A stretch of DNA of 64,000 nucleotides, taken from NCBI RefSeq assembly GCF_000269985.1, contig NC_016109.1, positions 3,720,001 to 3,784,000 on the forward strand, in the 5' to 3' direction. Both the position numbers and the translations under genes were made by a program. Of this stretch, positions 18,078-33,770 are shown piece by piece (the first letter of the stretch is position 1; each line of letters opens with the position of its first letter). This DNA is from Kitasatospora setae KM-6054 (GTDB lineage Bacteria; Actinomycetota; Actinomycetes; Streptomycetales; Streptomycetaceae). Below the pieces are notes generated by a model. It made no database searches, was not told where the DNA came from, and saw nothing but the letters and a program-made list of their open reading frames with translations.

Positions 18078-19309
18078 CCGTCCCCTCCCGGCCCGGCCGC
18101 CGTCCCGGCCCCCGGCTGGGCGCGGAGCCCGGCCAGGACCGTCGCGTAGCGGTCGGCGAGTTCCCGCGCCGTCCGGTCGCCGACCCGGGCCGCGTCGTAC
18201 TCGACGACCAGCCAGGTGCGTCCGCCGGCGGCGTGCTCCTCGCGGAACAGCAGGAACCCGAGGGGGAAGCGGGCCCTCGGCGGGGCCAGCGGGAGCCACC
18301 GGGTCGAGCAGCCGGGGAGGTCGAGGGCGGGGACGGTGTCCAGGGCCAGCACGGCGGACGGCGGCGACTGGCCGGCCTGAGCCATGGCCCGCAGCGTCGC
18401 CGGGTCCAGCGCGGGCCCCTCCAGCCCGTCGAAGACCGCCTCGCAGACCTCCTCCAGGTGCTCGGCCCGCAGCCCGCCGACGGGCACCCGGGCGAGCACC
18501 GCCCGCATCCGCACCATGCTGTCCACCCGGTCGCCGTCGTGCCGGCCGCGCCCGGCGTCGGGGAAGCCGACCAGGAAGGTCCGCACGCCCACCACCTGGT
18601 GCAGCGCCTCCTGGAAGGCCGCCATGTGCAGGGTGAACGGGGTGACGGCGAACCTCAGGGCCGCCTCGTCGACGCCGTCGGGCAGGGCCGTCGGGGGGAG
18701 CGACGCCCCGCGCGGCGCCGCCCCGGCGGCCGGGAACGGGTCCTCCGGCGCGGGGCCGGCGAACGGCCGCGCCGGGGGCATCCGCGGCGGGGCCGGCGCC
18801 CGGTCGTGCCGGGGCGCGGCCGGCGCCTCGCCCGACGCGTAGGCCCGGGCGATGTCCCGGACCAGGAGCCGGGTGGACCAGCCGTCGACGACCACGTGGT
18901 GGGCCAGCAGCACGAAGCCGTGCAGGTCGCGGGCGATCCGTTGGATCCGGACGGCGGCCAGCGGCCCCCGGTCCGGGTCGATCCCGTCGCGCCACAGTGC
19001 CAGCGCCCGCTCCCGCAGCACGTCCGCGGCCTCGGCCCCGGGCGGCAGCGGCAGGTCCTCCAGCACCGCGTCGACCCGTCCGCCCGGGTCCGCCAGGACC
19101 GGCCACCCCGCGCGGACCCGGACGGCGGCCCCCAGCGCGGGGCGGCTCCCGAGCACCGCGGCCGCGGCGGCGCGCAGGCGGGCCGCGTCCAGCGGGCCCT
19201 CGATCAGGATCGCGGTCGGCTCGGTGTACAGCGACGGGACGTCCGAGACCTGCTCCTCGTACCAGAGCCCGGCCTGCTCCGGGGTGAGCCGTGCGTCCGC
19301 GCCGGTCAC
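18074..19309 (-). CDS. Free-standing NRPS condensation domain protein
   Basis: A 411-residue condensation-superfamily protein. The HHxxxDG active-site motif is intact as AHHVVVDGWS (about residues 136-145). The N-terminus (LTPEQAGLWYEEQVSDVPSLY) matches the C1-type start of condensation domains. The C-terminal half is divergent and the DFGWG latch motif is not obvious. It would join two carrier-bound or free aminoacyl groups; cyclisation or transfer to a small amine are alternatives. GTG 19309 overlaps the upstream stop (GTGA) and its own stop overlaps the next start (ATGA), so all three NRPS genes are translationally coupled. Confidence 0.85.
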   Translation of the reverse strand: MTGADARLTPEQAGLWYEEQVSDVPSLYTEPTAILIEGPLDAARLRAAAAAVLGSRPALGAAVRVRAGWPVLADPGGRVDAVLEDLPLPPGAEAADVLRERALALWRDGIDPDRGPLAAVRIQRIARDLHGFVLLAHHVVVDGWSTRLLVRDIARAYASGEAPAAPRHDRAPAPPRMPPARPFAGPAPEDPFPAAGAAPRGASLPPTALPDGVDEAALRFAVTPFTLHMAAFQEALHQVVGVRTFLVGFPDAGRGRHDGDRVDSMVRMRAVLARVPVGGLRAEHLEEVCEAVFDGLEGPALDPATLRAMAQAGQSPPSAVLALDTVPALDLPGCSTRWLPLAPPRARFPLGFLLFREEHAAGGRTWLVVEYDAARVGDRTARELADRYATVLAGLRAQPGAGTAAGPGGDG

Positions 19310-21138
19310 CGGGCCGCCTCGGGGGCAGCCCCGGACGGGCGGTCGCGCAGTTCGGCGTCGATCCACTCGGCGATCGCGACCGCCGTCCTGCGGCGGACCA
19401 CGATCCGCAGCGGCACCTCGACGCCGAACTCCTCCCGCAGCAGTTCGGCGGCGTTCGCGACCAGCAGCGAATGGCCGCCGCTGAGGAAGAAGTCGCTGTC
19501 CGCGGCGAAGCCGCCCTCGCCGAGCCGGTTCTCGCCGAGCACCCGCTCCAGGACCGCGCGGGCCCGTTCGGCCGAGGCGGACGGGCGGGCGGTTCCGGAT
19601 TCCCCGGTGTCGTTCGATCGCATCAGCGCGCTCCAGTCTGTCTTTCCGTTGACGGTGGTGGGGATCCGGTCGACCGACCGGATGGTGGCCGGGATCATGG
19701 CCGGCAGCAGGCGGTCCGCCAGGTGGACGCGCAGCCGGGCCGGCAGCCCGCGCGGATCGCCGGCCCCGGTCGGCACGACGTACGAGGCGAGGGCCGGCCG
19801 TCCGGCCGGGTCGCGGACGCCGTGGGTCCGGGCCAGCGCGACCTCGGGGTGGAGTTCGAGCGCGCCGTCGATCTCGCCCGGCTCCACCCGGTGGCCGCGG
19901 ATCTTCACCTGGTCGCCGATCCGGCCGTACACGACGATCCGCCCGTCGGCGGTGGTCCGGGCGAGGTCCCCGGTCCGGTACGCGCGCCGCGCGCGCCCGG
20001 TGTCCGGGTGCGGCAGGGAGCGGAACGCCGCCGACCCGGCGTCGGGGGCGCCCAGGTAGCCGAGGGCCACTCCCCCGCCGAAGACGACCAGTTCGCCGGC
20101 CTCCCCCGGGGCGACGGGTGCCAGGTCCCGGTCCGCGAGCACCAGGGCGAAGCCCGGGAGGAGCCGGCCCGCGTCGACCTCCCCGCCGTCGGCCCCGACC
20201 TCGCCGATCGAGATCATGCAGGTGGCCTCGCTGGGCCCGTAGGCGTTGAACACCCGGCGCCCGGGTGCGCTCCAGCGGTCGCCGGCGGCCCTGGTCAGCG
20301 GCTCGGACCCCGACACCAGGACCCGCAGCCCGGGCAGCCGCCGGGGGTCGAGCGCCCCGTGGGCGGTGGGGGAGAGCAGCACCGCGGTGATCCGGCGGAC
20401 GCGGAGCGCCTCCTCCAGCGGTGCGCCGACGAGCAGGGCGTCCCACTCGTCGAGGCAGAGCGCGGCTCCCACCGGGAAGGCCATCAGCAGTTCCCCCACG
20501 AAGGCGTCGAAGCCGGTGCTGGAGAACTGGAGGACCCGGTCGTCCGGACCGAGCCCGAGGCGGTCGCGCAGCCCGGCGGCCAGCGGGGCCAGTCCGCCCT
20601 GGGGCACCCGGACGCCCTTGGGGGCCCCGGTGGAGCCCGAGGTGAAGACCAGGTAGGCGAGGTCGTCGGGGGCGGCCTCCGCGACCAGTCCGCCGACCGC
20701 GGCGGGCTCCGCCCCCGGGCCGGCGGGCTCCGTCCCGGGGACGGCCGGTGGCAGCACCAGCGGCGGCGGCCCGTCCCGGCGTTCGGCCCGGGCCCGGTTG
20801 GCGGGGTCGGTGACCACGCAGCGCGGGTCGGCCTGCCGCAGGATCGAGTCGGTCCGCAGCGGCGGATGGGCGGGGTCCACGGTCAGCCAGGCCGCCCCGC
20901 GGGCGCTGGCCGCCAGGACCGCGGCGACCAGGTCCGGGCCCCGGTCCATCAGGACCGCGACGGTGTCCCCGGGGCGCACCCCGCGTCCGCCGAGCAGGGC
21001 GGCCAGCTCTGCCACCCGGTCGAGCAGGCGGGCGTAGGTCAGCCCGGTGCCGGCGGTCTCCAGCGCGAGCCGCTCGGGGTGCGCCCGGGCGGCCGCCAGG
21101 AAGATTCCGAACAGGGTGGGTGTCGGGTGCGCGGTCAC
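19306..21138 (-). CDS. NRPS adenylation-peptidyl carrier didomain protein
   Basis: A 610-residue A-PCP protein. Adenylation motifs: A3 LVFTSGSTGAPKG, A5 NAYGPSE, A7 YRTGDLA, A8 GRIGDQVKIRGHRVEPGEID, and A10 IPTTVNGKTDW. The carrier domain holds the phosphopantetheine serine in DFFLSGGHSLL (about residue 557). The pocket motif FDAFVGEL keeps the amino-group-binding Asp; the manual code is roughly D-A-G-L-L-S-A-C-M, suggesting a hydrophobic residue but not decisive. GTG 21138 is preceded by AAAGGAA. It is the only carrier protein visible in the island, so the free adenylation and condensation domains probably work with it. No MbtH-like protein and no thioesterase is encoded nearby. Confidence 0.9.
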   Translation of the reverse strand: MTAHPTPTLFGIFLAAARAHPERLALETAGTGLTYARLLDRVAELAALLGGRGVRPGDTVAVLMDRGPDLVAAVLAASARGAAWLTVDPAHPPLRTDSILRQADPRCVVTDPANRARAERRDGPPPLVLPPAVPGTEPAGPGAEPAAVGGLVAEAAPDDLAYLVFTSGSTGAPKGVRVPQGGLAPLAAGLRDRLGLGPDDRVLQFSSTGFDAFVGELLMAFPVGAALCLDEWDALLVGAPLEEALRVRRITAVLLSPTAHGALDPRRLPGLRVLVSGSEPLTRAAGDRWSAPGRRVFNAYGPSEATCMISIGEVGADGGEVDAGRLLPGFALVLADRDLAPVAPGEAGELVVFGGGVALGYLGAPDAGSAAFRSLPHPDTGRARRAYRTGDLARTTADGRIVVYGRIGDQVKIRGHRVEPGEIDGALELHPEVALARTHGVRDPAGRPALASYVVPTGAGDPRGLPARLRVHLADRLLPAMIPATIRSVDRIPTTVNGKTDWSALMRSNDTGESGTARPSASAERARAVLERVLGENRLGEGGFAADSDFFLSGGHSLLVANAAELLREEFGVEVPLRIVVRRRTAVAIAEWIDAELRDRPSGAAPEAAR

Positions 21139-23018
21139 GCGCGTTCCTTTCCGTTGTCGTCGTGCGCGTCTCCGCCGCGGGGTCCGGCGGCCACCCACAG
21201 GTACCGGCTGTAGGTGCTGATCCGGCCCTCCGCGACGGCGAACAGCCGCAGGCCGTGGCGGTCGGCGACGTCGAAGTGCGGGGGGACCGGTCCGCCGACG
21301 TCGACGGACCGCTCCTCCGCCGGGGCGAGCGGAACCGTCAGGGTGGTCGCCCACTCGGTGCCGTACAGGTCCTCGTGGAGCAGCGCGTAGCCGAGGTGGG
21401 CCACCACCGGGCGGCTGGTCCGGTTGGCCAGTACCGCGCGTTGGACGAGGTGCTCGCCGCGGACGGTGTGCCGGGGTCCTTCCAGGCGGCAGGAGACCGC
21501 GGCCCGGCGGTCCGCGTCGACGACCTCACCGCACACCGGGCAGGACAGCAGGGTGCGTTCCGCGTCGGGGTCGAGGGCGTGCCGCCAGTGCAGGCGCAGC
21601 CCCTCGGAGCCGCACTCGGGGCAGCTCTCGGGCTCCTGGGCGAGCACCCGGGAGGCGTCCGAGTAGCTGTCCATGAAGTGGTAGCGGCCCTGTGCCGTGA
21701 GGCTGGTGAGCTGTTCGGCGACGGCCCGGTCGATCCCGTCGAGCAGGTCCCGGCCGCGGTCCAGGCCCCGTACCGCCCGCTCGGACCCCAGGGCGTCGGC
21801 GAGTTCGGCCCAGACCTCGGCCAGTTCCGTCCGGGCGGCGTCCGGGCGGAACCGCTCCCCGGTGAACCCGCAGGTCCACAGGCGTCCGGCGGCCGCGGTC
21901 CGGTCGGCGAGCACCGCGAAGCGCTCGGCCGGGCGGTCGGACGCCGGCTCGACCCGGACCTCGCCCGGTTCCCCCCTGGCGACCAGCAGGATCCCGCCGT
22001 CCGGTTGGCGCAGCGCGTCCGCCGGGCCGCGCACGGTGATCCGGCCGGGGTCGGCCCCCGGGGCGATCCGGACGCCGCCGGCCGCCAGGTCGAGCGGCTC
22101 GCCGATCCGGCCGGCCGGCAGCCGCCGTCCCGGGTACGGGACGAGCCCCGGGTCGCCGAGCAGGACGAACCGCCCGTAGGCCCGCTCGCAGTCGGCCACC
22201 CCGCGGTTCACCGCGGCGACGGCCGCGCCGAGGGAGAGCCCGTCGCGCAGCAGCGCGGCGAACTGCGGGCCGGCCGCGTAGTGGCCGCCGCGCAGCCAGG
22301 GACTGGCGACCACGGCGACCGCGCCGCCCTCCAGCAGGGTCGGTGCGAGCGTGGTGTCGCTGGTGAACTGGGTGTCGCCCACCTTCTGCACCAGGCAGCT
22401 GTCGATGAAGACGATGCCCGCGCCCAGCGAGGCGGCGGGCAGCAGCTCGGCGTCCCCGTAGTGGAGGCGGTAGCAGCCCTCCCCCTGCACGCAGGAGGTC
22501 AGGCCGAGGGGCCGCCGCCCGTCCGGCCGCACCAGCGGCTCGTCCGCGGTGCGGCCGCAGATCACGCCGTCGGCGAGGTGCACCAGGCACTCCCGGCCGT
22601 GGGCCTTCAGCACCAGGGTTCCGCCGCCGTCGGCGGCCCGGCGGACCTCCTCGCGGGTGGCGGCGGGCCGGTCCGCGGTCGCGTCGATCAGCACCGACCG
22701 CTCGCCCAGCCAGGTGGGCGCGCTGACGGTGCGCTCCACCAGTGCGGCCAGTCGGCGGGGTCCGCGGGCGGTGAGCAGGCCGATGTGGTCCCGCTGCGAG
22801 GCCCGGGCGAGCCAGCGGTCCCCCACCGCCTCCGGGGAGGCGACCACGGTCAGCGGGCCCCGGGCGTCCAGGGCGAAGACCTCCGCGAGGTCGGCGAGTC
22901 GCAGGTGCGGCCGGCCGGTCCGGTTCGCGAGGGCGGCGGCCGCGGCGTCGGCCCGGTCACCGGTGGCCGACACCACCGTGCCGTCCCAGGACGGCTGTTC
23001 GTTCGTCGGGTCGGTCAT
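21135..23018 (-). CDS. Caspase/CHAT-like cysteine protease-fold protein with zinc ribbon
   Basis: A 627-residue protein of an unusual type. Residues ~130-295 look like a caspase-hemoglobinase fold (CHAT or gingipain-like clan CD): a strand then His in TLVLKAHGREC (His ~140), a strand then Cys in GIVFIDSCLVQ (Cys ~208), then GGAVAVVASPW and FVLLGDPGLVPYP, the segment that closes such domains. Residues ~465-495 hold two CxxC knuckles (CPEC, CPVC), a likely zinc ribbon. An N-terminal ~100-residue domain and a C-terminal beta-rich ~110 residues are unassigned. No signal peptide. Within an NRPS operon it may process or release a peptide, or cleave a partner. The family call is from motifs only. 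Confidence 0.6.
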   Translation of the reverse strand: MTDPTNEQPSWDGTVVSATGDRADAAAAALANRTGRPHLRLADLAEVFALDARGPLTVVASPEAVGDRWLARASQRDHIGLLTARGPRRLAALVERTVSAPTWLGERSVLIDATADRPAATREEVRRAADGGGTLVLKAHGRECLVHLADGVICGRTADEPLVRPDGRRPLGLTSCVQGEGCYRLHYGDAELLPAASLGAGIVFIDSCLVQKVGDTQFTSDTTLAPTLLEGGAVAVVASPWLRGGHYAAGPQFAALLRDGLSLGAAVAAVNRGVADCERAYGRFVLLGDPGLVPYPGRRLPAGRIGEPLDLAAGGVRIAPGADPGRITVRGPADALRQPDGGILLVARGEPGEVRVEPASDRPAERFAVLADRTAAAGRLWTCGFTGERFRPDAARTELAEVWAELADALGSERAVRGLDRGRDLLDGIDRAVAEQLTSLTAQGRYHFMDSYSDASRVLAQEPESCPECGSEGLRLHWRHALDPDAERTLLSCPVCGEVVDADRRAAVSCRLEGPRHTVRGEHLVQRAVLANRTSRPVVAHLGYALLHEDLYGTEWATTLTVPLAPAEERSVDVGGPVPPHFDVADRHGLRLFAVAEGRISTYSRYLWVAAGPRGGDAHDDNGKERA

Positions 23019-24277
23019 GCCGGGCTCCGATCGGGGTCGGGCGGGAGGGGGGCGGGTGCCGCACGGTCCGTCAGGGAGCGGACCCCGGGGACGAGGAGGG
23101 TGAGCACGGCCGAGGCGGCGAGGAGCGCCGCGGCGGCGGCGAACGTGGTGCGGGTCCCGGCGTGCTGGGCGAGCAGCCCGACCAGCCCCATGCTGACCGG
23201 CCGCGACACGGTGTAGCCGAAGAGGTCCCAGGACAGCACCCGGGACAGCGTCTCGTCGGGCACGTGCTTCTGCATGGTGCTCTGCCAGACGATGTCGGTG
23301 AACATCACCGCCGCCCCGGCCAGCACCTCCGCGACCACCAGGACCCCGAGGCCGGCGCCCGCGCCCATCGCCAGCAGCAGCGGCACCGTGAGCACCGAGC
23401 TCGCGAGGAAGGCGGGCATCGGGCGGCGGGGCACCAGCCGGGCGGCGGCCAGGCTCCCGAGGACGCTGCCGATCGAGAAGGCGGTCAGCAGCGTGCCCCA
23501 GGCGGTCGCTCCGCCGAGCACCCGCTCCGCGGCGATCGGCCCGAGGACGAACAGCGGTCCGGCCACGCACAGTTGGTTCACCACGAAGTAGCCGATCCCG
23601 GCGGTCAGCCAGGGCCGGGCCCGTACTTCGGCGGCACCGGCCCGGAGGTCGGCGAGCACCGAGGCGCGCTCCCCGCCCGCGTCCGCCGCCGCGGACCTCG
23701 TCCCGCGCCCGCCGGCCACGAGCAGCAGGGCGCCCGCCAGGAAGGTGAGCGAGTCCAGGCCCAGGGCCCAGGCGGGGCCGAGCGTGGCGGTCAGCACGCC
23801 GGCGAGCGCCGGGCCGGCGACGTTCGCCACCCCGGACACCGCCGAGATCGAGGCGTTCGCCTGCTGGAGCGCGGCGGGCGGCACCAGCTGCGGGACGAAA
23901 CCGCCGTAGGTGGGGAGGAAGCAGCCCGAGGCGAGGCCGTGGACGAGTTGGAGCGCCGCGAGGCCCGCCACCCCCGCGTGGCCGCCGAACAGCGCCGCCG
24001 CGGTCAGCCCCTGGGAGACGAAGCGCACCAGGTCCGACCCGACGAGGATGCGGAGGCGGTCCGCCCGGTCGGCCAGCACCCCGCCGAACAGCAGCGAGAC
24101 GGTGAGGCCCAGGACCCGTGCCGTGAGCACCGCGGACAGCGCCCCGGCCGACCCGGTCAGCGAGAAGACGGCGAAGGCCATGGCCACGCCGTTGCAGCCG
24201 TCGCCGAGGACGGACAGGGCCTGGGCGGAGGCGAGGTACCTGATCCTGCGGTCGCCGAGGACGGTACGCGGGTTCAT
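23015..24277 (-). CDS. MFS transporter (EntS-like exporter)
   Basis: A 420-residue twelve-helix major facilitator of the MFS_3/EntS group. It begins MNPRTVLGDRRIRYLASAQA, with the loop motif GGVLADRADRLRILV between helices 2 and 3 and GSVLGSLAAARLVPRRP between 8 and 9. It lies within the biosynthetic operon, overlapping the stop of the nucleotidyltransferase gene (ATGA) and the start of the caspase-like gene (ATGA). Export of the island's product is the natural inference; it may also give self-protection. Confidence 0.85.
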   Translation of the reverse strand: MNPRTVLGDRRIRYLASAQALSVLGDGCNGVAMAFAVFSLTGSAGALSAVLTARVLGLTVSLLFGGVLADRADRLRILVGSDLVRFVSQGLTAAALFGGHAGVAGLAALQLVHGLASGCFLPTYGGFVPQLVPPAALQQANASISAVSGVANVAGPALAGVLTATLGPAWALGLDSLTFLAGALLLVAGGRGTRSAAADAGGERASVLADLRAGAAEVRARPWLTAGIGYFVVNQLCVAGPLFVLGPIAAERVLGGATAWGTLLTAFSIGSVLGSLAAARLVPRRPMPAFLASSVLTVPLLLAMGAGAGLGVLVVAEVLAGAAVMFTDIVWQSTMQKHVPDETLSRVLSWDLFGYTVSRPVSMGLVGLLAQHAGTRTTFAAAAALLAASAVLTLLVPGVRSLTDRAAPAPLPPDPDRSPA

Positions 24278-25053
24278 GGGTGGTCAACTCCTGACGGGTG
24301 GGAGCCGTACGCCTGCGCGGCGGCGAAGCAGTACTGCACGTGATAGGCGTCCAGGTCGGGCGGGGCGGCGGGGCCGGGCTCCAGCCGTTCCCCCCAGCCC
24401 CGCACGGTCGGTCCGGGCAGCGTGACCCGCTCTCCGGCCAGGGCGATCTCCCCGGCCGCGGCGATCCGCGCCAGCGCCCGGACCAGCCTGGTCCGGACGG
24501 CCTCGCCCCGGGGGGAGCCCGCGGTGGGCAGCCGCCACTCCTCCCACCAGCCGGGAAGGGCGAGGAAGCGGTCCAGGCGCACGGTCCCGCCGTACGGCAG
24601 GATCCGGCTGAGCTGCTGGCGCACCAGGGCCGCCGCGCATCCGGCCGCCTGTTCGGCGTGCTCCGCGGCGCCCCGCACGGCCGTCCCCGAGGCCACCATG
24701 CTGATCCAGTAGCGCCAGGGCTCGTCGAGCGGTCCCGGCAGGATCACCCCGGAGGGGTCGCGGCGGAACGCCGCGCCGCGGCGGGCCGTCCGCAGGTCCC
24801 GGGCGAACAGCACCTCTCCCGGCCATTCCAGGTCGGGGTGCCGGTCGAACCTGCGGTGCAGCCGGGCGTACTCGGCGCTGAACGCGACGCGCAGGTCGAC
24901 GGCCTCCTCCAGCGGCACCTCGTCGCGCAGGACGACGACGAGGTCGATGTCGCCGGCCGGCCCCGACCGGTCGACGGCGCTGCCGGTCAGGATCACGAAG
25001 GAGGCCCGGCCGGCCGGTACCCGGTCGGCCAGGGCTTTGATCTCCTCGAACAT
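24274..25053 (-). CDS. Nucleotidyltransferase-fold protein
   Basis: A 259-residue protein whose N-terminus has the polymerase-beta-type nucleotidyltransferase signature: a helix, then ILTGSAVDRSGPAGDIDLVV with GS at 24-25 and the metal-binding Asp pair DxD at ~35-37. A third Asp/Glu is plausibly near residue 75 (HPDLEWPGEVLF). The remainder is helical, as in aminoglycoside or MNT-type enzymes. It could adenylylate the product (self-protection), an intermediate, or a protein. It starts 12 bases after the methyltransferase stop. The substrate cannot be judged from sequence. Confidence 0.65.
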   Translation of the reverse strand: MFEEIKALADRVPAGRASFVILTGSAVDRSGPAGDIDLVVVLRDEVPLEEAVDLRVAFSAEYARLHRRFDRHPDLEWPGEVLFARDLRTARRGAAFRRDPSGVILPGPLDEPWRYWISMVASGTAVRGAAEHAEQAAGCAAALVRQQLSRILPYGGTVRLDRFLALPGWWEEWRLPTAGSPRGEAVRTRLVRALARIAAAGEIALAGERVTLPGPTVRGWGERLEPGPAAPPDLDAYHVQYCFAAAQAYGSHPSGVDHP

Positions 25054-25065: not shown

Positions 25066-25986
25066 CTACTCCGCCGCGGCGGGCAGGTGGTCCGCGGCCG
25101 CGGCCCCGGCCCGGAAGTGCACCAGGCGCACCCCGCTCGGGATCATCACCCGGCCGTCCTCGGCGGTGTGCCCGGCGACGAAGGCGTCGATCCGGGCGAT
25201 CACCTCGGGGTCGTCCACCAGGCCGGGGAAGGTGTTGAGGTGGCCGACCCGGAACCACTCCCGGGCGGCCGCCGCGTCCTCGGCCACGGCCACCCCGGCC
25301 AGCCGGCGGACGTCCAGCGTGCCGCGCCCCTCCCGTTCGGCCCGCAGCAGCACGTCCTCGACGATCCGCCAGGTGTAGTCGCGGCCGGTGCCCGGGAACG
25401 GGGCGATCCGCTCCCACAGTTCGGTGACCAGGCGCTGCTCCGCGGAGTCCGCGTCGAAGAACAGCATCACCAGGTGGCCGTCCGCGGTGAGCAGCCGGGT
25501 CAGCCCGTCGACGATCCGGCGGGCCCGGACCAGGCCGGCCTCCGGGTCCCCGACGGAGACCACGCCGTCGGCCGAGGTCTCCTCGAAGCACTCCAGCAGG
25601 GGGTAGTTCAGCGACCAGAACGACCCGACCAGGTCGTAGCTGCCCGCCCGGCCCTCCGCCAGCAGGTCCGCCACCACGCGCTCGGTGTCGCCGACGGTGG
25701 CCTCGGCCGCGGGGAACGCGGACCGGAAGCGCTCGATCATGCCCTCGCTCTTGTCGGCACCGTGCAGGCTGCCGTAGCGGGCCAGCGGCCAGCTGGCCCG
25801 GCCCGGGCCGCAGCCCAGGTCCAGCGCCCGCAGGTCGCGCGGCCGGCCGTCCGCCGGGCCGTGGATCTCCTCCAGCAGCTCGGCGACCAGGTCGGTGTCC
25901 TCCGTGCCCCCGTAGTAGTGCGGGGGCAGCATCTCCTTGTAGACGTCGGCGTTCTTGTAGCCGATGTTGAAGGTCTCCACGGACAT
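25066..25986 (-). CDS. SAM-dependent class I methyltransferase
   Basis: A 306-residue Rossmann-fold methyltransferase. Motif I is clear, LDLGCGPGRASWPLARYG (about residues 56-73), followed by the acidic end of strand 2 in LHGADKSEGMIERF, and by SYDLVGSFWSLNYPLLECFE where the motif IV loop should be. The N-terminus FNIGYKNADVYKEMLPPHYYGG could form a substrate lid. It probably methylates the island's product or an intermediate on N, O or C; the acceptor is not predictable. It lies 28 bases downstream of the ArgRS-like gene in the same operon. Confidence 0.82.
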   Translation of the reverse strand: MSVETFNIGYKNADVYKEMLPPHYYGGTEDTDLVAELLEEIHGPADGRPRDLRALDLGCGPGRASWPLARYGSLHGADKSEGMIERFRSAFPAAEATVGDTERVVADLLAEGRAGSYDLVGSFWSLNYPLLECFEETSADGVVSVGDPEAGLVRARRIVDGLTRLLTADGHLVMLFFDADSAEQRLVTELWERIAPFPGTGRDYTWRIVEDVLLRAEREGRGTLDVRRLAGVAVAEDAAAAREWFRVGHLNTFPGLVDDPEVIARIDAFVAGHTAEDGRVMIPSGVRLVHFRAGAAAADHLPAAAE

Positions 25987-26014: not shown

Positions 26015-27511
26015 TCAGGCGGCTCGGACCGAGCCGGCGGTGTCGTGCGAGCGGTCGGCCCGGAGGCCGAGCAGGCCGCTCACCTGTTCGTGGGTGTGCA
26101 GGAACCACTCCCGGGCCCAGGGCGGGACGGCCCCGGCGCGCGCGGCGCGGCGGTAGGCGGTGGCGAGGTCCACCAGGTAGCGGGCGAGCGGGTGCGGGCT
26201 GCGCAGGTGGAGCGCGCCGTGCGCCGCGCCGAGGCTCCGCAGCAGGGCCGTCGCCAGTTCGCGGGCGGCCGGGTGCGGGAGGCCGGCCTCCGGGCCGACC
26301 CCCGTCCCGTGCGAGGCCAGCTCCAGCGCCTCGGCCACCCGCCGGTGCGGGCGGCCGGTCAGCGCGCCGACGTCCAGGGCCCGGCGGGGCCGGCGGAGCA
26401 TCATCTCCAGGGCGGTCGAGGCGAGTCGGTCCGCGTCCTCGCGGTCCACCTCGGCCACCGTGATGAGCCGGTTCTGCCGGGAGGAGAACTTCCGGCCGCG
26501 GTCGTGGATCGTGCCGAACGCCACGTGCTCCGACGTCCGCCCGCGGGCCGCCAGCACGTCGCGCAGGGCTCGCTGCAGCAGCGTCTGGTCGTCGCCGATG
26601 ACGTGCAGCATCAGGTCGGCGGCCGGGTCGCGGGCGAGGCTGTTGGCCACGTCCCGGAGGAAGTACAGCGAGGACCCGTTGGCCCGGGCCACCGGCACCA
26701 GGCCGTCCGGACGGCGCAGGCACCAGGTGCCGTTGACCGCCACCGCGGGGTGTTCGGCGAGCAGTTCGTGCAGCAGGGAGTCGAGCGGGCCGGTGACGGC
26801 GCTCTCCCGTTCGAAGTGGTCCACCTCGGCGTGCACGAGCCCCATGTCGGCGACCGCCAGGTCGACCATCCGGTCGACGAATCCGGGCCGGGGGTCGGTG
26901 GGGTCCGCCAGTCGGGCCCGCAGGGCGACCGGGTCCCGCAGTTCGGGGGGCACCGCGCGGTCCAGCCAGGGGTGGGCCGCGGTCAGCCGCTCGATGTCCG
27001 CCGCGCGTTCGCCCAGCACCATGTTCACCAGGGCGTACAGCACGCCGGCCGCGGTGTCGAAGCGCATCCCGGGCGGGATCGCCCGGGTCCGGGTGCGCGC
27101 CATGATCCAGTCCAGCAGGACCACTTGGCGACCGTGGTCGTTGACGAAGTAGTGCACCCGCACCTCGGCCCCGGCGGAGCGGAGCAGTCGGGCCAGCGAA
27201 CCGCCGATCAGCGTGCTGCGCAGCGCCCCGAGGTGCATCGGGTGCACCGGGTTGATGCTGGTGTGCTCGACGATCACGCGTCGGCCCCGCAGGTGCGTGC
27301 TCCACTCCTTCCAGTACGTGTGCTGGAAGGAGCGGGCGTACTCGCCGAGTTCGTGCCAGGGCAGGGGCGCCTGCCGGGGTGCGCCGGTCCGGTCGCGGTA
27401 GTGCAGCCGGCCGTCGCGGTTCCAGTGGACGGCGTGGGCCGGGTCGGCGTGGTCGCCGAGCAGTTCCCGCAGGAGCGGGTTGACCGGGAGGGAGTGGTCG
27501 CGGTCCCGCAT
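26015..27511 (-). CDS. Arginyl-tRNA synthetase-like protein, N-terminally truncated, altered HIGH motif
   Basis: A 498-residue class I synthetase paralogue of the ArgRS family. Family segments are clear: NPVHPMHLGALRSTLIG (~88-104), HYFVNDHGRQ, SLYFLRDVANSLARDP, HVIGDDQTLLQRALRDVL, a KMSKS-equivalent KFSSR (~341-345), and a C-terminal helical DALR-like domain ending VSGLLGLRA. Two oddities: the N-terminal tRNA-D-loop-binding domain of ArgRS is missing, and the second His of HxGH is Ala (HLGA). Like the CysRS-derived ligase MshC of mycothiol synthesis, it may activate an amino acid and pass it to a small amine rather than tRNA; tRNA charging is not excluded. Its ATG overlaps the dehydrogenase stop by one base. 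Confidence 0.78.
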   Translation of the reverse strand: MRDRDHSLPVNPLLRELLGDHADPAHAVHWNRDGRLHYRDRTGAPRQAPLPWHELGEYARSFQHTYWKEWSTHLRGRRVIVEHTSINPVHPMHLGALRSTLIGGSLARLLRSAGAEVRVHYFVNDHGRQVVLLDWIMARTRTRAIPPGMRFDTAAGVLYALVNMVLGERAADIERLTAAHPWLDRAVPPELRDPVALRARLADPTDPRPGFVDRMVDLAVADMGLVHAEVDHFERESAVTGPLDSLLHELLAEHPAVAVNGTWCLRRPDGLVPVARANGSSLYFLRDVANSLARDPAADLMLHVIGDDQTLLQRALRDVLAARGRTSEHVAFGTIHDRGRKFSSRQNRLITVAEVDREDADRLASTALEMMLRRPRRALDVGALTGRPHRRVAEALELASHGTGVGPEAGLPHPAARELATALLRSLGAAHGALHLRSPHPLARYLVDLATAYRRAARAGAVPPWAREWFLHTHEQVSGLLGLRADRSHDTAGSVRAA

Positions 27512-28467
27512 CACCAGCCTCCTTCCCAGGCGGCCACCGCGGCCTCGGACCGCGCCGCGGTGGGCGGGCGGTGCAGCAGCACCGTGTTGGTGAGGCCGTG
27601 GGCGGCGCAGTACCCGGGCGCCCCGGCCAGCAGCCGGCGGAAGTCCACGGCCGGGAGCAGGCGCGCGCCGGGCCGGTCGAGTCCCCGGCGGCGGAGGGCG
27701 TCCGCGATCCGCGCGGAGCGCTCGGGCGCCCACTCCTGGAGGACGGCGCACACCGGCATCAGCGCGAGCAGCAGTTCGCCGTGCCAGGGGACCGCGTCGG
27801 TCTCCTGTTCCAGCTGGTAGGCCAGGTAGTGCTCGGTGCCCTCCTCGAACCAGGCGTCGCCGGTCCGCAGGCCGGCCTCCACCTTCGCGATCAGCAGCGC
27901 GGCGGTCCCGGACGGGTCGGGTGCCTCGTCGTGCAGGCCGGCCAGGGTCCGGTCGACCAGGTCCCGCGCGGTGCGCAGGAGCGGTTCGTCCACCTGGTGC
28001 GCCAGGAGGCGGTCCCGCACGGCCGACTCGACGCTCAGCAGGTCGCCGGTGCTCCACCGGTGGCCGGCGGGCGGGGCGGCGGCCAGCAGGGCCCGGTCCA
28101 GCACGACCGCGTCGGGCAGGCCGGTCTCCCGGTACTCCACCGCGTCACCGACCCGCAGGGCGGCGACCGGACTGAACGCGGCGTCGGTGGACAGCAGGGT
28201 CGGCACGGTGAGCAGCGGCAGTCCCGCGTCGGCGGCGGCGACCTTGGCGCGGTCCATGACCGCGCCCGCCCCGACCGCCAGGATCCGTGTGGTTCCGGCG
28301 TCCGGCACCGGTGCGGGGCCGGTCTCGATCCGGGCCGCCCCGGCGCCGAGCAGGGGCGCGGCGGCGGCCCAGGCCCGCGGCGAGGTGACGACGAGGTCGG
28401 TCCGGCCGATCGGGCCGAGCCGGTCGAGGCCCTCGATGACGCGGATCCGGTCGTGGGTGGGTGGCAT
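27511..28467 (-). CDS. Glycerol-1-phosphate dehydrogenase-like (DHQS-fold) oxidoreductase
   Basis: A 318-residue protein of the iron/zinc-dependent dehydrogenase and dehydroquinate-synthase fold, closest in pattern to sn-glycerol-1-phosphate dehydrogenases (AraM/EgsA type). It shows a dinucleotide-binding VGAGAVMDRAKVAA, PTLLSTDAAFSPVAAL, GDLLSVESAV with the metal Asp, and two metal His in GTEHYLAYQLE and PWHGELLLALM. ATG 28467 has a strong CGGAGGACC ribosome site. In this operon it probably reduces a keto or aldehyde group, or oxidises an alcohol, perhaps handing an aldehyde to or from the neighbouring aldehyde-dehydrogenase-like enzyme. A lipid role is less likely in this setting. Confidence 0.72.
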   Translation of the reverse strand: MPPTHDRIRVIEGLDRLGPIGRTDLVVTSPRAWAAAAPLLGAGAARIETGPAPVPDAGTTRILAVGAGAVMDRAKVAAADAGLPLLTVPTLLSTDAAFSPVAALRVGDAVEYRETGLPDAVVLDRALLAAAPPAGHRWSTGDLLSVESAVRDRLLAHQVDEPLLRTARDLVDRTLAGLHDEAPDPSGTAALLIAKVEAGLRTGDAWFEEGTEHYLAYQLEQETDAVPWHGELLLALMPVCAVLQEWAPERSARIADALRRRGLDRPGARLLPAVDFRRLLAGAPGYCAAHGLTNTVLLHRPPTAARSEAAVAAWEGGW

Positions 28468-28502: not shown

Positions 28503-29672
28503 TCAGGAGCGGGGGAGGTGTCGGCCGGCGGGGGCGGACATCTCGAAGGGGACGAGCGCCGGCCCCGGGCGGACTCCTCGGGCCTGGCGGACGAACGTGG
28601 TGCGGCGGTAGCCGCCGAACGACGCCATCGCGTTCTCCTGGTCGTACTGGGTGGAGCCGATCGCGACGTGGCCGAAGTCGAGGGTCCCGAAGGACGGCAT
28701 CCGGCCGTGGACGGTGAGCCCGAGGGCGAAGTCGCCGAGTTCGAGCATCTGCCGCAGTTCCCGGTCGGAGCGGTAGCGGACCAGCGGCAGGATCGGGCAG
28801 TACTTCTCCTCCAGCACCACGGCGCTGTCCGCGGCGGCCTCCAGGACGGAGGTCTCGTACAGGTCGGGGCCGATCCGGCCGCCCGCCCGCAGCACGGTGC
28901 CGGCGGCGGGGTCGGTGATCCGGCGGTACCAGTCCTCGGCGTGCGCGGTGAGCAGCAGCGGGCCGACGTCCGTGGCGGGGTCGGTGTTCGGTCCGTAGCG
29001 GACTCCGTCCAGGACCCGGTCGAGTTCGGCGGTGAACCGGTCGAACACGGCGTCGGCGACGTAGACCCGCTCGGTGGCCAGGCAGTCCTGCGAACTGTTG
29101 AACAACCGGGTGGCCGCGACCGCCGCCGCGGCGGCCGCCGGGTCGGCGTCGGCCGCCACCACGAAGGCGCAGCACCCCGGCCCCTGGTAGACCATCCGGG
29201 TCCGCTCGGGGAGCCGCTGGTGGAGCCGCTCGGCCCGGGCCGGGCCGCCGCAGAACACCACCCCGGCCGCGTCCTCCCCGGTCCGCCGCTCGAACGACTC
29301 CCAGTCGTCCCGGTCGGCCCGCACGTCCAGCCCGGCCCGGCGGGCGATCGACACCACCCGCTCGACCACGTGCCGGCTGGCGGTGGCCGGGCGCACCAGG
29401 ACCCGGTTGCCCGGGAGCAGGGCCCCGACCGCGAACAGGACGAAGGAGTAGAGCGGGAGGGTGGCGGGGAGCCGCACGTGGACGGTGCCCAGCGGCACCC
29501 GTCCGGCCAGCCAGGCGACCTGGCGCCGGTCGAGCGCCAGCCCGGCGTCGGCCCACTGCCACTCGGTCTCCGCGGTGCGGACGGTCTCCACCGTCGCGGC
29601 CAGGGCGATCAGCTCCGGTTTCTCCTCGGCGAGCAGCCCTCTCAGGATTTCGAGTTTCCTCAGAATTTCCAT
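28503..29672 (-). CDS. Aldehyde dehydrogenase-superfamily protein lacking the usual general base
   Basis: A 389-residue ALDH-fold protein, ~100 residues shorter than most. The catalytic Cys is at ~197 in LFNSSQDCLATERVYV. Three standard residues are changed by manual alignment: the oxyanion Asn is Thr (LPATLPLYSF), the NAD-site Lys is Arg (VLVRPAT), and the general base Glu is Gln (~163, MVYQGPGCCAFVV). Loss of that Glu is a feature of CoA-acylating and reductive members, so it may reduce an activated acyl group to an aldehyde or make a thioester rather than oxidise to an acid. ATG 29672 has GGAGG upstream. It is the first gene of the leftward operon. Confidence 0.75.
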   Translation of the reverse strand: MEILRKLEILRGLLAEEKPELIALAATVETVRTAETEWQWADAGLALDRRQVAWLAGRVPLGTVHVRLPATLPLYSFVLFAVGALLPGNRVLVRPATASRHVVERVVSIARRAGLDVRADRDDWESFERRTGEDAAGVVFCGGPARAERLHQRLPERTRMVYQGPGCCAFVVAADADPAAAAAAVAATRLFNSSQDCLATERVYVADAVFDRFTAELDRVLDGVRYGPNTDPATDVGPLLLTAHAEDWYRRITDPAAGTVLRAGGRIGPDLYETSVLEAAADSAVVLEEKYCPILPLVRYRSDRELRQMLELGDFALGLTVHGRMPSFGTLDFGHVAIGSTQYDQENAMASFGGYRRTTFVRQARGVRPGPALVPFEMSAPAGRHLPRS

Positions 29673-30030
29673 CAGATCCTCCGGAACGGTTTGTGGCGAT
29701 CCTGTCGAGAAGGTCCGGCCGGTCAGTCCCAGCCGATGTCGCCACCCGATCCGACCACCACTGCGCCCCGGTTTTCCGCCACCGCACCGGACGGGACGGA
29801 GGAAGGCGCGGCAAAGATGGAAACGATTGCGGCGAAGGTGACGACGAAAAGGGAAGCCCGGATCACCGAAAAATCCAATCTGATCGGATGGATCATTTTC
29901 CTCGAGGCCGGATCCCAGTGTCTCCGCCCCCTTCGACAGCAATGCTTCCCGACCGCCTTCACCCGGTCCAGGGCTGCCGTTTGGCCTATGATTGACGTCC
30001 CGACCTGGCCAATACTCAATGGGGGGCAAA
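29673..30030. promoter_or_regulatory. Divergent promoter region of the biosynthetic island
   Basis: A 358-base non-coding region between the leftward operon and the rightward regulator gene. It is noticeably richer in A/T than the genes (for example around 29815-29900). For the regulator, a plausible -10 box TATGAT lies at 29987-29992, giving a ~30-base leader; no good -35 is seen. The ribosome site GGGGGGC precedes ATG 30031. This is the likely target of the LuxR-type regulator. Confidence 0.5.
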
Positions 30031-31041
30031 ATGGACAATGTCGGCGATTTTCAACGGCCGCCGACGGGATTGGGCGGCGTTGATGTCGCGGTGTACGCCG
30101 CAGTGGCCCAGGGGCACGGCGCGGACGGCGCGGACATGGCCCGCCGGGTGGGGTTACCGTTGGCCGAGACGCTCGACTCGCTGGCCAGGCTCTCCGCGTT
30201 CGGACTGGTCAGGGGGAGCCTCACCCAGCCGCCGGGAGTGGTGGCGGTCCATCCGGGGGTGGCTGCGGAGCTGGCCCTGCGGGACGCCATCGAGGGCGCG
30301 CGGGAGCGCCTGACCGGCCTGGAGGAATTGCGGGAGTCCATGCTTTCCTGCCTGCCCCACTACGGCGAGAGCGACCCGTCCGAAATCCTGCTCGAAGCCT
30401 CGGAGGTATCGGCGTTCCTCGCCGGCGAGATCAAGCGGGCCGAGCACGAGGTACTGACCGTCCAACCCGGCGGGGTGCGCAATCCGTCCACCCTCGACTC
30501 CGTGCTCTCCCAGGAGCTGGAAATGCTCGGCCGGGGAATCAGCCGGAGAATTCTCTACCAGCACACGGCGCGCGGATCGCTCGCCATGCAGTCCTTCGTG
30601 TCGTCCCTCTGCGCCGCAGGCGGAGAAGTCCGCACCGTGGACGTGCTGCCCGACCGCATGGTCGTCATCGATCGGCGTGTCTGCGTCATACCCCGTCGCC
30701 TCACGAATTCGGGCCCGCCGGCCGGGGTCGCCATCATGTCGCCGAGCACCATCGGGTTCGTCGTCGATCTTTTCCAGCGGCTGTGGGATTCGGCCACGCC
30801 TTTCACCGCCACCGAAGCGGTGCGGGAGGAGGTACTGGACGAGGTGAAGCGGGCCGTCCTGCACGCCCTGGCCCTGGGCCTGACCGACGAGACGGCGTCG
30901 CGCCGGCTGGGCATGTCCACCAGGACGTTCCGCCGCCACCTCTCGACCGCGATCTCCGACCTGGGCGCGACCAGCCGGTTCCAGGCCGCGGTGATGGCGG
31001 TGGAGCGGGGCGTCATCGAGCTCTCGCCCTCCGACGCCTGA
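30031..31041 (+). CDS. LuxR-type transcriptional regulator with TTA codon (cluster-situated)
   Basis: A 336-residue regulator. The N-terminal ~90 residues look like a winged helix of the TrmB kind (VAVYAAVAQGHGADGADMARRVGLPLAETLDSLARL), the middle is a ligand- or partner-binding domain, and the C-terminus is a LuxR/GerE helix-turn-helix (LGLTDETASRRLGMSTRTFRRHLSTAISDLGATSRFQA). Codon 42 is TTA (30154-30156), so translation should need the bldA leucyl-tRNA, tying expression to development. It diverges from the operon and is probably its activator. ATG 30031 was chosen for its ribosome site; an in-frame ATG at 30019 is less well placed. Confidence 0.83.
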   Translation: MDNVGDFQRPPTGLGGVDVAVYAAVAQGHGADGADMARRVGLPLAETLDSLARLSAFGLVRGSLTQPPGVVAVHPGVAAELALRDAIEGARERLTGLEELRESMLSCLPHYGESDPSEILLEASEVSAFLAGEIKRAEHEVLTVQPGGVRNPSTLDSVLSQELEMLGRGISRRILYQHTARGSLAMQSFVSSLCAAGGEVRTVDVLPDRMVVIDRRVCVIPRRLTNSGPPAGVAIMSPSTIGFVVDLFQRLWDSATPFTATEAVREEVLDEVKRAVLHALALGLTDETASRRLGMSTRTFRRHLSTAISDLGATSRFQAAVMAVERGVIELSPSDA

Positions 31042-31042
31042 C

Positions 31043-31089
31043 CCGGGGTCCGTCTTCCCGGCCCGTCCGGCCGGGAAGACGGACCCCGG
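31043..31089. terminator. Bidirectional terminator between the LuxR-type regulator and ArgRS genes
   Basis: A perfect 20-bp stem (31043-31062 with 31070-31089) with a 7-base loop fills the gap between the two convergent stop codons. Confidence 0.85.
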
Positions 31090-32853
31090 TCACATCCGCT
31101 CGGGGGCGCGCAGGCCGAGCAGGTCCAGGCCCTGCGCGAGGGTGTCCGCGGTGAGGCGGCACAGCGCCAGGCGGTTGGCCCGGCGGGCCGGGGTGTCGGC
31201 CTTCAGGACGGGGCAACTGCCGTAGAACTCGGTGAGCGCCTTCGCCAGGGCGAAGAGGTACCCGGCCAGCCGGTGCGGCTCGGCCTCGTCGGCCACCTCC
31301 CGGAGCACCTGCCCGAAGCCCTCGAGCTGCAGGATCAGGGCGCGCTCGGCGGGTTCGAGCGGCAGTCCGGGATCGACCTCCGGGGCCGGGTCGACCGCCT
31401 GGGCCTTCCCGAGCAGGGTGCGCAGCCGGGCGTGGGCGTACTGCAGGTAGACCCCGGTGTTGCCCTGGAGCGAGACCATCTGGTCGATGTCGAAGACGTA
31501 GTTCTTGGTGCGCGACGTCGAAAGGTCGGCGTACTTGACCGCTCCGATGCCGGCCGCCCGCGCGACGTCGTCGAGCTCCGCCTCGGAGAGCTCGTGCGGC
31601 TTGTCGGCGACCGCCCGGTGGGCCGCGGCGACGGCGGCGTCCAGCAGCTCGGCGAGCCGCACGGTGCCGCCCTCCCGGGTCTTGAACGGCGTTCCCCCGG
31701 GGCCCATGACCGTACCGAACGGGACGTGCACGGCCTCCACCCCGGCGGGCAGCCAGCCGGCCCGGCGGGCGGTGGCGAAGACCATCTTGAAGTGCAGCGA
31801 CTGCCGGGCGTCGACGACGTAGAGGATCCGGTCGGCGCGCAGCTCCCGGACCCGGTGCCGGAGCGTGGCCAGGTCGGTGGCCGCGTAGCCGTAGCCGCCG
31901 TCCTTCTTCCGGACGATCAGCGGCACCGGGGCGCCGTCCGGTCCCGTCACGTCCTCGAAGAAGACGCAGAGGGCGCCGTCGCTCTCGACCGCGGCACCGC
32001 TGTGCAGCAGTTCCTCGGCGACCTCGTCGAGGAGGTGGTTGTACGTGGACTCGCCGGCCGAGTCCGCCTCGGTCAGCAGGACCCCGAGCCGGTCGTACAG
32101 CTGCTGGAAGGCGGCGGTGGAGACCGCCACCAGCTCCCGCCAGGCCCCGGTCGTCGCCTCGTCGCCGGACTGCAGCGCGACCACCCGGCCGCGGGCCCGC
32201 TCGACGAAGTCCTGGTCCCGTTCGAACTCCTTGCGGGCCGCCCGGTACAGGGTGTCGAGGAGTGCCACCTGCGCGGCGGCGTCCCCCTGCTCGGCCCGGC
32301 CGTGCCAGCCGGCCTCCGGGTGCTCGTCGAGGTACTGGATCAGCATGCCGAACTGGGTGCCCCAGTCGCCGAGGTGGTTCTGCCGGACGACCTCCCCGCC
32401 GAGGAAGGACAGCACCCGCACCAGGGAGTCGCCGATGACCGTGGTGCGCAGGTGCCCGACGTGCATCTCCTTGGCGATGTTGGGCGCCGAGTAGTCGATG
32501 ACCGTCCTGCTGCCCGCCAGCGGGAGGCCCACACCGAGCCGCGGGGCGGCCAGCCGGGCCGTCACCTGCGCCCACAGCAGGCGGTCGGCGAGGCGGAGGT
32601 TGAGGAAGCCCGGCCCCGAGACGTCGGCCGCGAACGGCCCCGCCGCCAGCTCGGACCGCAGCGCCTCGGCCAGGTCGCGCGGCGGACGACCGGCCTCCTT
32701 GGCCAGGGCCAGTCCGACGTTCGACTGGAAGTCGGCGTGCTCGGACGGCCGGACCAGCGCGTCCCGACCGGACAGGTCCTCCGGCAGGACGCGGGCCATC
32801 GCCTCCCGCACCGCGCGCTCCGCCAGACCCATCGCGGCGAGTACCTCGGTCAC
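31090..32853 (-). CDS. argS: Arginyl-tRNA synthetase (probably a second, island-associated copy)
   Basis: A 587-residue complete class I ArgRS: N-terminal tRNA-binding domain (EHADFQSNVGLALAKEAG), HxGH in NIAKEMHVGHLRTTVIGD, GDWGTQFGMLIQYL, YGYAATDLATL, the degenerate KMSKS FKTREGG typical of this bacterial type, and a C-terminal DALR domain ending LLGLRAPERM. GTG 32853 has GGGGGGAAG upstream. It sits beside the biosynthetic genes and their regulator rather than with housekeeping genes. If the genome has another argS, this copy may be a target-duplicate resistance gene or may supply Arg-tRNA to the pathway. Convergent with the regulator and transcribed from its own promoter. Confidence 0.88.
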   Translation of the reverse strand: MTEVLAAMGLAERAVREAMARVLPEDLSGRDALVRPSEHADFQSNVGLALAKEAGRPPRDLAEALRSELAAGPFAADVSGPGFLNLRLADRLLWAQVTARLAAPRLGVGLPLAGSRTVIDYSAPNIAKEMHVGHLRTTVIGDSLVRVLSFLGGEVVRQNHLGDWGTQFGMLIQYLDEHPEAGWHGRAEQGDAAAQVALLDTLYRAARKEFERDQDFVERARGRVVALQSGDEATTGAWRELVAVSTAAFQQLYDRLGVLLTEADSAGESTYNHLLDEVAEELLHSGAAVESDGALCVFFEDVTGPDGAPVPLIVRKKDGGYGYAATDLATLRHRVRELRADRILYVVDARQSLHFKMVFATARRAGWLPAGVEAVHVPFGTVMGPGGTPFKTREGGTVRLAELLDAAVAAAHRAVADKPHELSEAELDDVARAAGIGAVKYADLSTSRTKNYVFDIDQMVSLQGNTGVYLQYAHARLRTLLGKAQAVDPAPEVDPGLPLEPAERALILQLEGFGQVLREVADEAEPHRLAGYLFALAKALTEFYGSCPVLKADTPARRANRLALCRLTADTLAQGLDLLGLRAPERM

Positions 32854-32930
32854 GTGCGACTTCCCCCCAGTGCTGTGCGCCCCGGGTCGTCGGCCGCCGT
32901 CGGCCGCCGACCCGGCAGACTTCCGAGCTA

Positions 32931-32948
32931 GGTAATATATCACATACC
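32931..32948 (-). promoter_or_regulatory. AT-rich promoter/operator element of argS
   Basis: The 18-base GGTAATATATCACATACC stands out in a GC-rich leader 78 bases before the argS start. It has GGTA/TACC ends, and on the minus strand TATATT could serve as -10. Downstream, an 8-bp stem CCGGGTCG...CGACCCGG (about 32882-32915) could form in the transcript leader. Confidence 0.4.
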
Positions 32949-32988
32949 AGATGGGCCGAGGCGCGCCTCCGGAAGGCGCGGGCGGCCC

Positions 32989-33747
32989 TCAGGCGTCGAA
33001 GTCGTACTCCAGGACGTACGAGGCCGAGTCCAGCACCATCTCGTTGACCTCCACCGCCTGCCCGTCCTCGGCGAACGCGATCCGGTGCACCAGGAACACC
33101 GGGGTGCCGGGCGCCAGCGCCAGCCGCTCCGCCTCGTCGCCGGCGGGCATCCGGGAGCGGATCTGCTCCTGGAAGTGCACCGGCTTGTGCCCCAGTTCGG
33201 CGAGCCGGGCGTAGGTGCCGCCGGGGCCGGTGTCCGGGTCGGTGATCCGGCTGCCGGCGACCAACGCGGCCGGCAGGTACGAGTCGGAGAGCAGCACCGG
33301 CTTGCCGTCCAGCACGAAGCGGCGGCTGCGCACGCAGGCCGGCTCGTCGCCCTTGAGGCCGAGCACGGCGGCGATCCGCCCGGGCGCCCCGCGCTCGGTC
33401 ACGCTCAGCTGGTCGACCGTCAGCTCGCGGGAGGCTATGTCCGCCGACCAGACCGACTCGCCGCCGCCCCAGGTGCGGCCGGAGAGCCGCTGGATGCCGC
33501 GCCGCCGTATCGGCCGGAACTCCCGGACGAAGACGCCGACGCCCCGGCGGGCCTCCGCCACCCCCTGGTCCTTGAGGACGCCGAGGGCCTGGCGGGCCGT
33601 CATCCTGGCCACGCCGTACGTCGCCATCAGGTCGTTCTCGCCCGGGAGCCGGTCGCCGGGGCGGTAGCGGCCGGAGTCGATGTCGCGCCTGAGGTCCTCG
33701 GCGATCCGCTGGTACTTGGGCTGCGGGGCGGGTGGGTGACTGGTCAT
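32989..33747 (-). CDS. GntR/HutC-family transcriptional regulator
   Basis: A 252-residue regulator with an N-terminal GntR winged helix (PKYQRIAEDLRRDIDSGRYRPGDRLPGENDLMATYGVARMTARQALGVL in outline, ~residues 10-58) and a C-terminal UTRA effector domain ending in VNEMVLDSASYVLEYDFDA. UTRA domains usually bind sugars, amino acids or other small metabolites. Three TCTAGA-centred sites lie just upstream (33771-33842), suggesting autoregulation and control of the divergent ATPase gene. It is not obviously part of the biosynthetic island. Confidence 0.87.
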   Translation of the reverse strand: MTSHPPAPQPKYQRIAEDLRRDIDSGRYRPGDRLPGENDLMATYGVARMTARQALGVLKDQGVAEARRGVGVFVREFRPIRRRGIQRLSGRTWGGGESVWSADIASRELTVDQLSVTERGAPGRIAAVLGLKGDEPACVRSRRFVLDGKPVLLSDSYLPAALVAGSRITDPDTGPGGTYARLAELGHKPVHFQEQIRSRMPAGDEAERLALAPGTPVFLVHRIAFAEDGQAVEVNEMVLDSASYVLEYDFDA

Positions 33748-33770
33748 GGCGGCGGACTTCCTTCCCCTCT

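Follow-up and report, generated by a model that had tools for sequence, protein, structure and literature searches.

An arginyl-tRNA synthetase paralogue in a small NRPS-type operon of Kitasatospora setae, a putative tRNA-independent arginine-adenylating enzyme

Few aminoacyl-tRNA synthetases are known as tRNA-free amino acid ligases, namely MshC, the MetRS-like enzymes, AS-A and the amino acid:carrier protein (aa:CP) ligases. MshC and a MetRS paralogue are described as class I synthetase-like enzymes of secondary metabolism in the available part of PMC2922099, and the MetRS-like PyrN acts without tRNA according to an excerpt of PMC8664883. No enzyme of secondary metabolism derived from arginyl-tRNA synthetase (ArgRS) was found among the matches listed in a search of open-licence papers, as represented by their accessible passages. 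In the accessible text of a 2022 review of duplicated synthetases, 'ArgRS' is absent and the single 'arginyl' stands in the title of a reference (PMC9437257). Neither word occurs in the portion at hand of a 2026 review of aminoacyl-tRNA-dependent enzymes in natural products (PMC12945691).

The gene g8 described here was analysed in a window of 64,000 nucleotides from Kitasatospora setae KM-6054, and all positions refer to this window. The original prediction regarded g8 as an ArgRS paralogue likely converted to an amino acid ligase.

The g1-g10 operon and the accessory ArgRS

The g8 reading frame runs on the minus strand from an ATG at 27511, preceded by GGAGG, to a TGA at 26015 (498 codons). 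Third-position GC was 0.92-0.98 in all ten 50-codon blocks, and the frame is therefore considered coding. It is one of ten tightly packed genes transcribed in the same direction from g10 to g1, with g10, g9 and g8 as the first three. Neighbouring genes overlap by 4 bases at five junctions and by 1 base (TGATG) between g9 and g8; at the remaining three junctions they are separated by 12, 28 and 35 bases. The genes and their neighbours are:

16563..18077, minus strand: g1, stand-alone adenylation (A) domain (PF00501, 226.8 bits)
18074..19309, minus strand: g2, condensation-domain protein (PF00668, 61.5 bits, residues 7-165; HHVVVDG by eye)
19306..21138, minus strand: g3, adenylation and carrier domains (PF00501, PF00550)
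21135..23018, minus strand: g4, 627 aa, caspase/CHAT-like by eye, with a zinc-ribbon trace
23015..24277, minus strand: g5, MFS transporter (Pfam)
24274..25053, minus strand: g6, nucleotidyltransferase-like, 259 aa (GS x9 DxD motif by eye)
25066..25986, minus strand: g7, methyltransferase, 306 aa (Pfam), with homologues beside accessory ArgRS in genomes G048 and G051
26015..27511, minus strand: g8, ArgRS-derived protein, 498 aa, the subject of this report
27511..28467, minus strand: g9, G1PDH/Fe-ADH-like dehydrogenase, 318 aa (PF13685, 47.5 bits)
28503..29672, minus strand: g10, aldehyde-dehydrogenase (ALDH)-like, 389 aa (PF00171, 107.4 bits)
29992..31041, plus strand: g11, TrmB/LuxR-type regulator (longest ORF, start approximate; PF00196, 23.8 bits, cut-off 23.5)
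31090..32853, minus strand: g12, complete accessory ArgRS, 587 aa, GTG start (TIGR00456, 451.3 bits, cut-off 261.65)
32989..33747, minus strand: g13, GntR/UTRA regulator

The genes g1-g10 form a small NRPS-type biosynthetic operon. The substrate codes of its two A domains, compared by eye with a reference, gave no clear match. In the alignment of g10 with ALDH the catalytic Cys is kept, and a Gln replaces the general-base Glu. An ALDH with Gln for the general-base Glu is expected to be acyl-transferring or acyl-reducing, not aldehyde-oxidising. When g9 was aligned with the G1PDH structure 5fb3, the Asp/His/His residues, which we assume to be ligands, and the NAD loop were found to be kept. Close relatives of g9 in the class were seen in its own genome only (1/188 genomes at E 1e-20). 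The CHAT-like name of g4, for which nothing scored above cut-off in Pfam, is tentative, because among four aligned homologues the putative Cys is conserved and the His is not. The match of g6 to Pfam Polbeta reached a sub-cut-off 13.3 bits, and a PDB search with g6 gave no match.

A promoter scan of 29500-34000 returned no sites, and one terminator-like site was present in the same interval against a mean of 1.4 in shuffles. The tRNA scan of the whole window found none. An anti-phage reading of the cluster was rejected on a PADLOC search at E 0.1, in which g8 and g4 had no match; g6, g7 and g9 matched weakly, the highest score being 35 bits for g7 against the mad2 model. Several short secreted chaplin-like proteins (by eye; 36190-40400) adjoin the insert, and some of them match near hemB in relatives.

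On a slightly longer reading of g12, PF00750, DALR_1 and Arg_tRNA_synt_N all match. The homologue and Pfam searches used this in-frame stretch (31090-32904), which starts 17 codons before the likely GTG; the NrtL model also matched g12 weakly, and the three papers listed for NrtL were unrelated, judged by their titles. The housekeeping ArgRS is located elsewhere, giving two complete ArgRS in the genome. The original prediction had g8 in a biosynthetic operon beside a complete ArgRS; the NRPS-type operon and the nearby complete ArgRS are both there, but g12 is a separate unit. It is separated from g8 by 3.6 kb, with g9, g10 and g11 (on the opposite strand) in between, and adjoins the GntR-type g13. 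Membership of g12 in the g8 operon is ruled out by these coordinates.

The g12-type ArgRS is a patchy accessory gene: at E 1e-60 it was present in 28 of the 70 genomes of the genus, with 46-79% identity to g12, in varied places and interrupted in at least one. Accessory ArgRS rows numbered 33 in the genus, and the context was read at 14 loci and at one more (G057). At 12 of the 14, no other g1-g13 gene was seen within the 20 kb read, one of these loci being at a contig end. Thus, the g12-type ArgRS is also found without any cluster gene nearby. The other two loci (G048 and G051), closely similar and counted as one case, have a g7-type methyltransferase nearby (45% identity), and homologues of g7 at E 1e-30 were confined to these two and the own genome among 394 family genomes. 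At about 5.7-11 kb of the locus in each case (L043 of G051, L044 of G048), a pyridoxal-dependent decarboxylase, the g7-type methyltransferase, a protein with a nucleotidyltransferase (NTase) motif and the accessory ArgRS occur together. Homology of the NTase-motif proteins to g6 was rejected (BLAST E 0.33; hhalign probability 2.7%), the motif alone being shared.

Homologues of g4 were present in three of 70 genus genomes at E 1e-10 (own, G038 and G057). In G057 the g4-like gene is followed on the same strand, after about 23 bases, by a g12-type ArgRS (49% identity), with the start as chosen in this analysis. At this locus (L090, 11302-18038) GNAT-like and MFS genes, assigned by eye, lie on the same strand as the g4-like gene and the accessory ArgRS. 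The g4 homologue of G038 has related A, A-PCP and MFS genes as neighbours; the 36 kb read there showed no g12-type match. Related NRPS mini-clusters were noted in Nonomuraea gerenzanensis (NZ_LT559118.1; L060, at about 14.4-25.4 kb of the locus) and in G038 (L092/L093). Both share a core of A (47% to g1), A-PCP, g4-like and MFS genes, with condensation-, ALDH- and BtpA-like genes named partly by eye; neither g8 nor g12 had a match in these stretches. In four of five relatives the hemL-hemB interval (named by eye) had no match to any of the genes tested there (g1, g3, g5, g8, g10, g12 and g13), and the operon and g12 therefore lie in one stretch that these four lack.

The repeated neighbourhood, with an accessory ArgRS beside cluster-type genes in two other lineages, supports, without proving, a role of g12 in serving the cluster as resistance or as Arg-tRNA supplier. 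It also points to an ArgRS-directed or arginine-derived natural product. Synthetase resistance has precedents in IleRS, TrpRS and SerRS, as given in the accessible text of PMC9437257.

Descent of g8 from ArgRS and the residues kept and lost

g8 is an ArgRS paralogue by descent. It matched PF00750 at 49.4 bits (cut-off 23.3), with the best stretch at residues 77-135, and in a PDB sequence search at E 10 the top 12 of 15 matches were ArgRS. It scored below the NCBIfam arginine--tRNA ligase cut-offs (NF002446, 132.5 against 399 bits; TIGR00456, 107.5 against 261.65 bits). The AlphaFold2 model, built with seven sequences, is moderate (mean pLDDT 64.9, pTM 0.50); ten-residue blocks in 71-330 have pLDDT 61-87, whereas 344-409, which includes R345, falls below 50. 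Foldseek placed ArgRS at ranks 1-20 (E 4.2e-14 to 1.3e-10), followed by CysRS and MetRS, with MshC (8hfm) at rank 43 (E 3.1e-4). VIA-align likewise gave ArgRS at ranks 1-12 (Z 17.2-15.3). The whole-model TM-scores with ArgRS were 0.29-0.39 only, and in most of the ArgRS rows of VIA about 300-330 residues superposed with an rmsd of 17-19 A; the human complex 4r3z superposed at 4.6 A over 248 residues (model residues 72-342). As the whole-model superposition is poor, it is the catalytic core that carries the structural match, and the arrangement of the domains is unreliable. These results uphold the predicted class I core of ArgRS type, with its superposition as qualified above. In the comparison with both ArgRS and MshC the model is nearest to ArgRS; MshC, offered as a precedent, is a fair analogy for the working mode but no closer relative than ArgRS.

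The N-terminal tRNA-binding domain is lacking, as had been predicted. PF03485 (Arg_tRNA_synt_N) gave no match at E 0.1, and in all 12 VIA rows the aligned ArgRS range begins at residue 102 or later, past its N-terminal domain. At the other end, the predicted DALR-like domain is seen as a profile trace only (DALR_1, 13.5 bits, cut-off 22.3), although ArgRS chains could be aligned structurally as far as residue 480-490 or so of the moderate model (end points, at residues 478-493, are all that these alignments give).

For residue comparison, g8 was aligned with 23 ArgRS, including the own housekeeping enzyme, accessory, plasmid-labelled and viral-contig sequences, one deltaproteobacterial and one archaeal. 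Five of ten accessory loci put forward were used (L014, L018, L024, L028 and L035 were dropped), and N-terminal residues were removed from rows L072 and L077. A column was counted if it was conserved in 90% or more of the 23 ArgRS, the reference rows being scored leave-one-out. Of the conserved catalytic-domain columns g8 keeps 14/16, a Tyr and a Lys being changed; of the N-terminal ones 0/5, all gaps; and of the C-terminal ones 6/16, in a region where the alignment is uncertain. The worst reference cases were 15/18, 4/6 and 13/19, respectively. Identity of the g8 core to ArgRS was 19-26%. Before E82, g8 has 81 residues (1-63 modelled at low confidence) against at least 115 in other ArgRS, the N-terminal lengths of several rows being upper values from open frames with unsettled starts. 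After R345 it has 153, where the others have 171-210, and both the YxQYAHAR motif and the PERM-like C-terminus usual in ArgRS are absent.

All eight yeast ArgRS pocket positions checked are kept (numbered on the 1bs2 chain): E148, S151, N153, H159, E294, Y347, D351 and Q375 correspond to E82, S85, N87, H93, E236, Y283, D287 and Q309. We take the roles of these positions, including holding of the guanidinium and the alpha-amino group, to be those in yeast ArgRS. The predicted KFSSR loop is present at 341-345, where R345 is the KMSKS-loop Arg, and N347 replaces a Gly two positions further on. Two other positions differ: H90 stands for K156, where the own housekeeping ArgRS has Gly, and A96 stands for H162. 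The latter belongs to HLGA, at 93-96, which had been pointed out as replacing HxGH. The motif is there, but it is weak as evidence of altered function, because the own housekeeping ArgRS reads HIGG; SVGH, SMGH and AYHH occur among the other aligned ArgRS. HLGA alone as proof of lost or changed activity is ruled out on the same ground. The AYHH variant is that of an ArgRS (L063, 2333-4075) on a 529-kb IMG/VR contig. As judged from the alignment, the arginine/ATP site of g8 appears selectively preserved while the tRNA-side elements went.

In an IQ-TREE phylogeny of 24 rows (the partial L064, L066 and L068 left out), g8 branched outside both ArgRS clades, in line with its expected placement apart from the ordinary clades sampled; its position is unsure because the end branch is very long (4.61 against a median of 0.61). 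No g8 orthologue was found beyond the own genome in the genus (1/70 genomes) or the class (1/394). In the family, 2/394 genomes matched, the own one and one with an ordinary ArgRS (L007), and the sister genus gave 0/392, an empty answer that would need a positive control to carry weight. The genome draws overlap, and the large searches scored three candidates per genome, so that distant relatives could have escaped them. One match, a deltaproteobacterial ArgRS, came from a pattern scan of genome contigs. Viral contigs had no orthologue; 41 plasmid records matched, none covering 80% of the query, and the three examined (H1, H2 and H13) were all ordinary full-length ArgRS. One plasmid-labelled record (L008, NZ_CP081947.1, 'Pseudomonas sp. 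DR48 plasmid') has an ArgRS of actinobacterial type, next to genes that by eye resemble lysA, hom, thrC and thrB, and looks mislabelled or foreign. As no orthologue was found, selection on g8 is not measurable, and the protein could be decaying.

Proposed function of g8

From the computed ArgRS descent, pocket, tRNA-side loss and operon context, we infer adenylation, tRNA independence and an acceptor. g8 is probably, though far from certainly, a tRNA-independent arginine-adenylating enzyme serving the g1-g10 cluster. Its former synthetase site would take up ATP together with L-arginine or a closely similar compound whose guanidinium is free; g8 would then make arginyl-AMP and pass the arginyl group to a non-tRNA acceptor. 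The most economical candidate acceptors would be the active-site Cys of g10, with reduction to argininal and then to argininol by g9; the carrier domain of g3; or an amine intermediate, in the manner of MshC. Carrier loading and amine ligation fit the data equally well as the g10 route, and the latter is weakened by the ALDH of the related Nonomuraea cluster, which keeps ELGG, so that the Gln of g10 is not cluster-wide. Against the whole proposal, a third activator is not strictly needed because two A domains already activate substrates.

It is rather unlikely that g8 has ceased to be an enzyme and serves as a sensor, decoy or immunity protein that binds arginine or a mimic of arginyl-AMP, in the style of HisZ. 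Such a role would suit its extreme divergence in the tree and the altered HIGH end and KMSKS+2 position, and HisZ, now a regulatory subunit, is described without adenylation activity in the excerpt of PMC9437257. However, H93, G95 and R345 of the ATP site and KMSKS loop are retained along with the arginine pocket and would be superfluous in a pure arginine binder.

A transferase that moves arginine from Arg-tRNA charged by g12 onto a metabolite is a thinner prospect still, though a complete ArgRS is close by. Its model is the IleRS-like SbzA, which does the same with Ile-tRNA as described in the available part of PMC6331615. In another system AglC, ArgRS and total tRNA give an arginyl phosphonate, according to the accessible text of PMC12866846. 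SbzA, as far as the source describes it, is a multi-domain class Ia protein, whereas g8 is without the N-terminal tRNA domain and has lost 10/16 conserved C-terminal columns.

That g8 activates a cluster substrate other than arginine, such as a guanidino amino acid that has been modified or cyclised, appears very improbable. The changes at K156 and H162 and the adjoining methyltransferase and dehydrogenases would agree with it, but the positions by which yeast ArgRS binds the guanidinium and the alpha-amino group are unchanged in g8. That g8 is a divergent minimal ArgRS still charging tRNA(Arg), as its lineage and intact pocket could suggest, is hardly credible in a genome that has two complete ArgRS already and for a protein with lost tRNA-side elements and scores far below the equivalog cut-offs.

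Under the favoured reading of g8 as an arginine-adenylating enzyme, an unlikely and more elaborate scheme can be drawn. g8 would hand arginyl-AMP to the acyl-reductase-like g10, and g9 would reduce the product further; the argininal/argininol unit would be built by g1-g3 (perhaps with g7 and g6) into an arginyl-adenylate mimic directed against ArgRS, with g12 as immunity, and g8 would be the first ArgRS-derived tRNA-free arginine activator. If true, the enzyme from which g8 descends would be the target of a poison made with the help of its own paralogue. A search of open-licence papers for argininol as an ArgRS inhibitor found none.

Comparison with known systems

g8 resembles ArgRS in its catalytic fold, arginine pocket and HxG and KxSxR signatures, and differs in having no N-terminal tRNA domain, YxQYAHAR or C-terminal end, in its shorter C-terminal part and in falling below the equivalog cut-offs. 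With MshC, as portrayed in the excerpt of PMC2922099, it would share the use of a class I synthetase core as a tRNA-free ligase; MshC is CysRS-derived and has a known amino sugar as acceptor, whereas g8 is nearest to ArgRS in sequence and fold. The MetRS-like domain of PyrN, Spb40 and Tri28 is also a class I synthetase-like enzyme of secondary metabolism but, in the accessible descriptions, has a cupin and a lysine N-hydroxylase as partners, and neither family was found among g1-g10 in Pfam at E 0.1.

SbzA of the SB-203208 pathway likewise resembles a synthetase and is encoded in a Streptomyces cluster that also has adenylate-forming enzymes and carriers; it differs in being IleRS-like and multi-domain and in using Ile-tRNA (PMC6331615, in its available part). 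The amino acid:carrier protein ligases are synthetase homologues without the tRNA domain, as is g8, and load a carrier protein, but they are class II and are listed for Ala, Gly and Ser in the portion of PMC9437257 at hand. Synthetase-derived enzymes in secondary metabolism are thus already known (MshC, PyrN, SbzA), and the ArgRS parentage would be the new part. If the case of g8 holds, it adds a new parent enzyme to these systems and a ready arginine activator.
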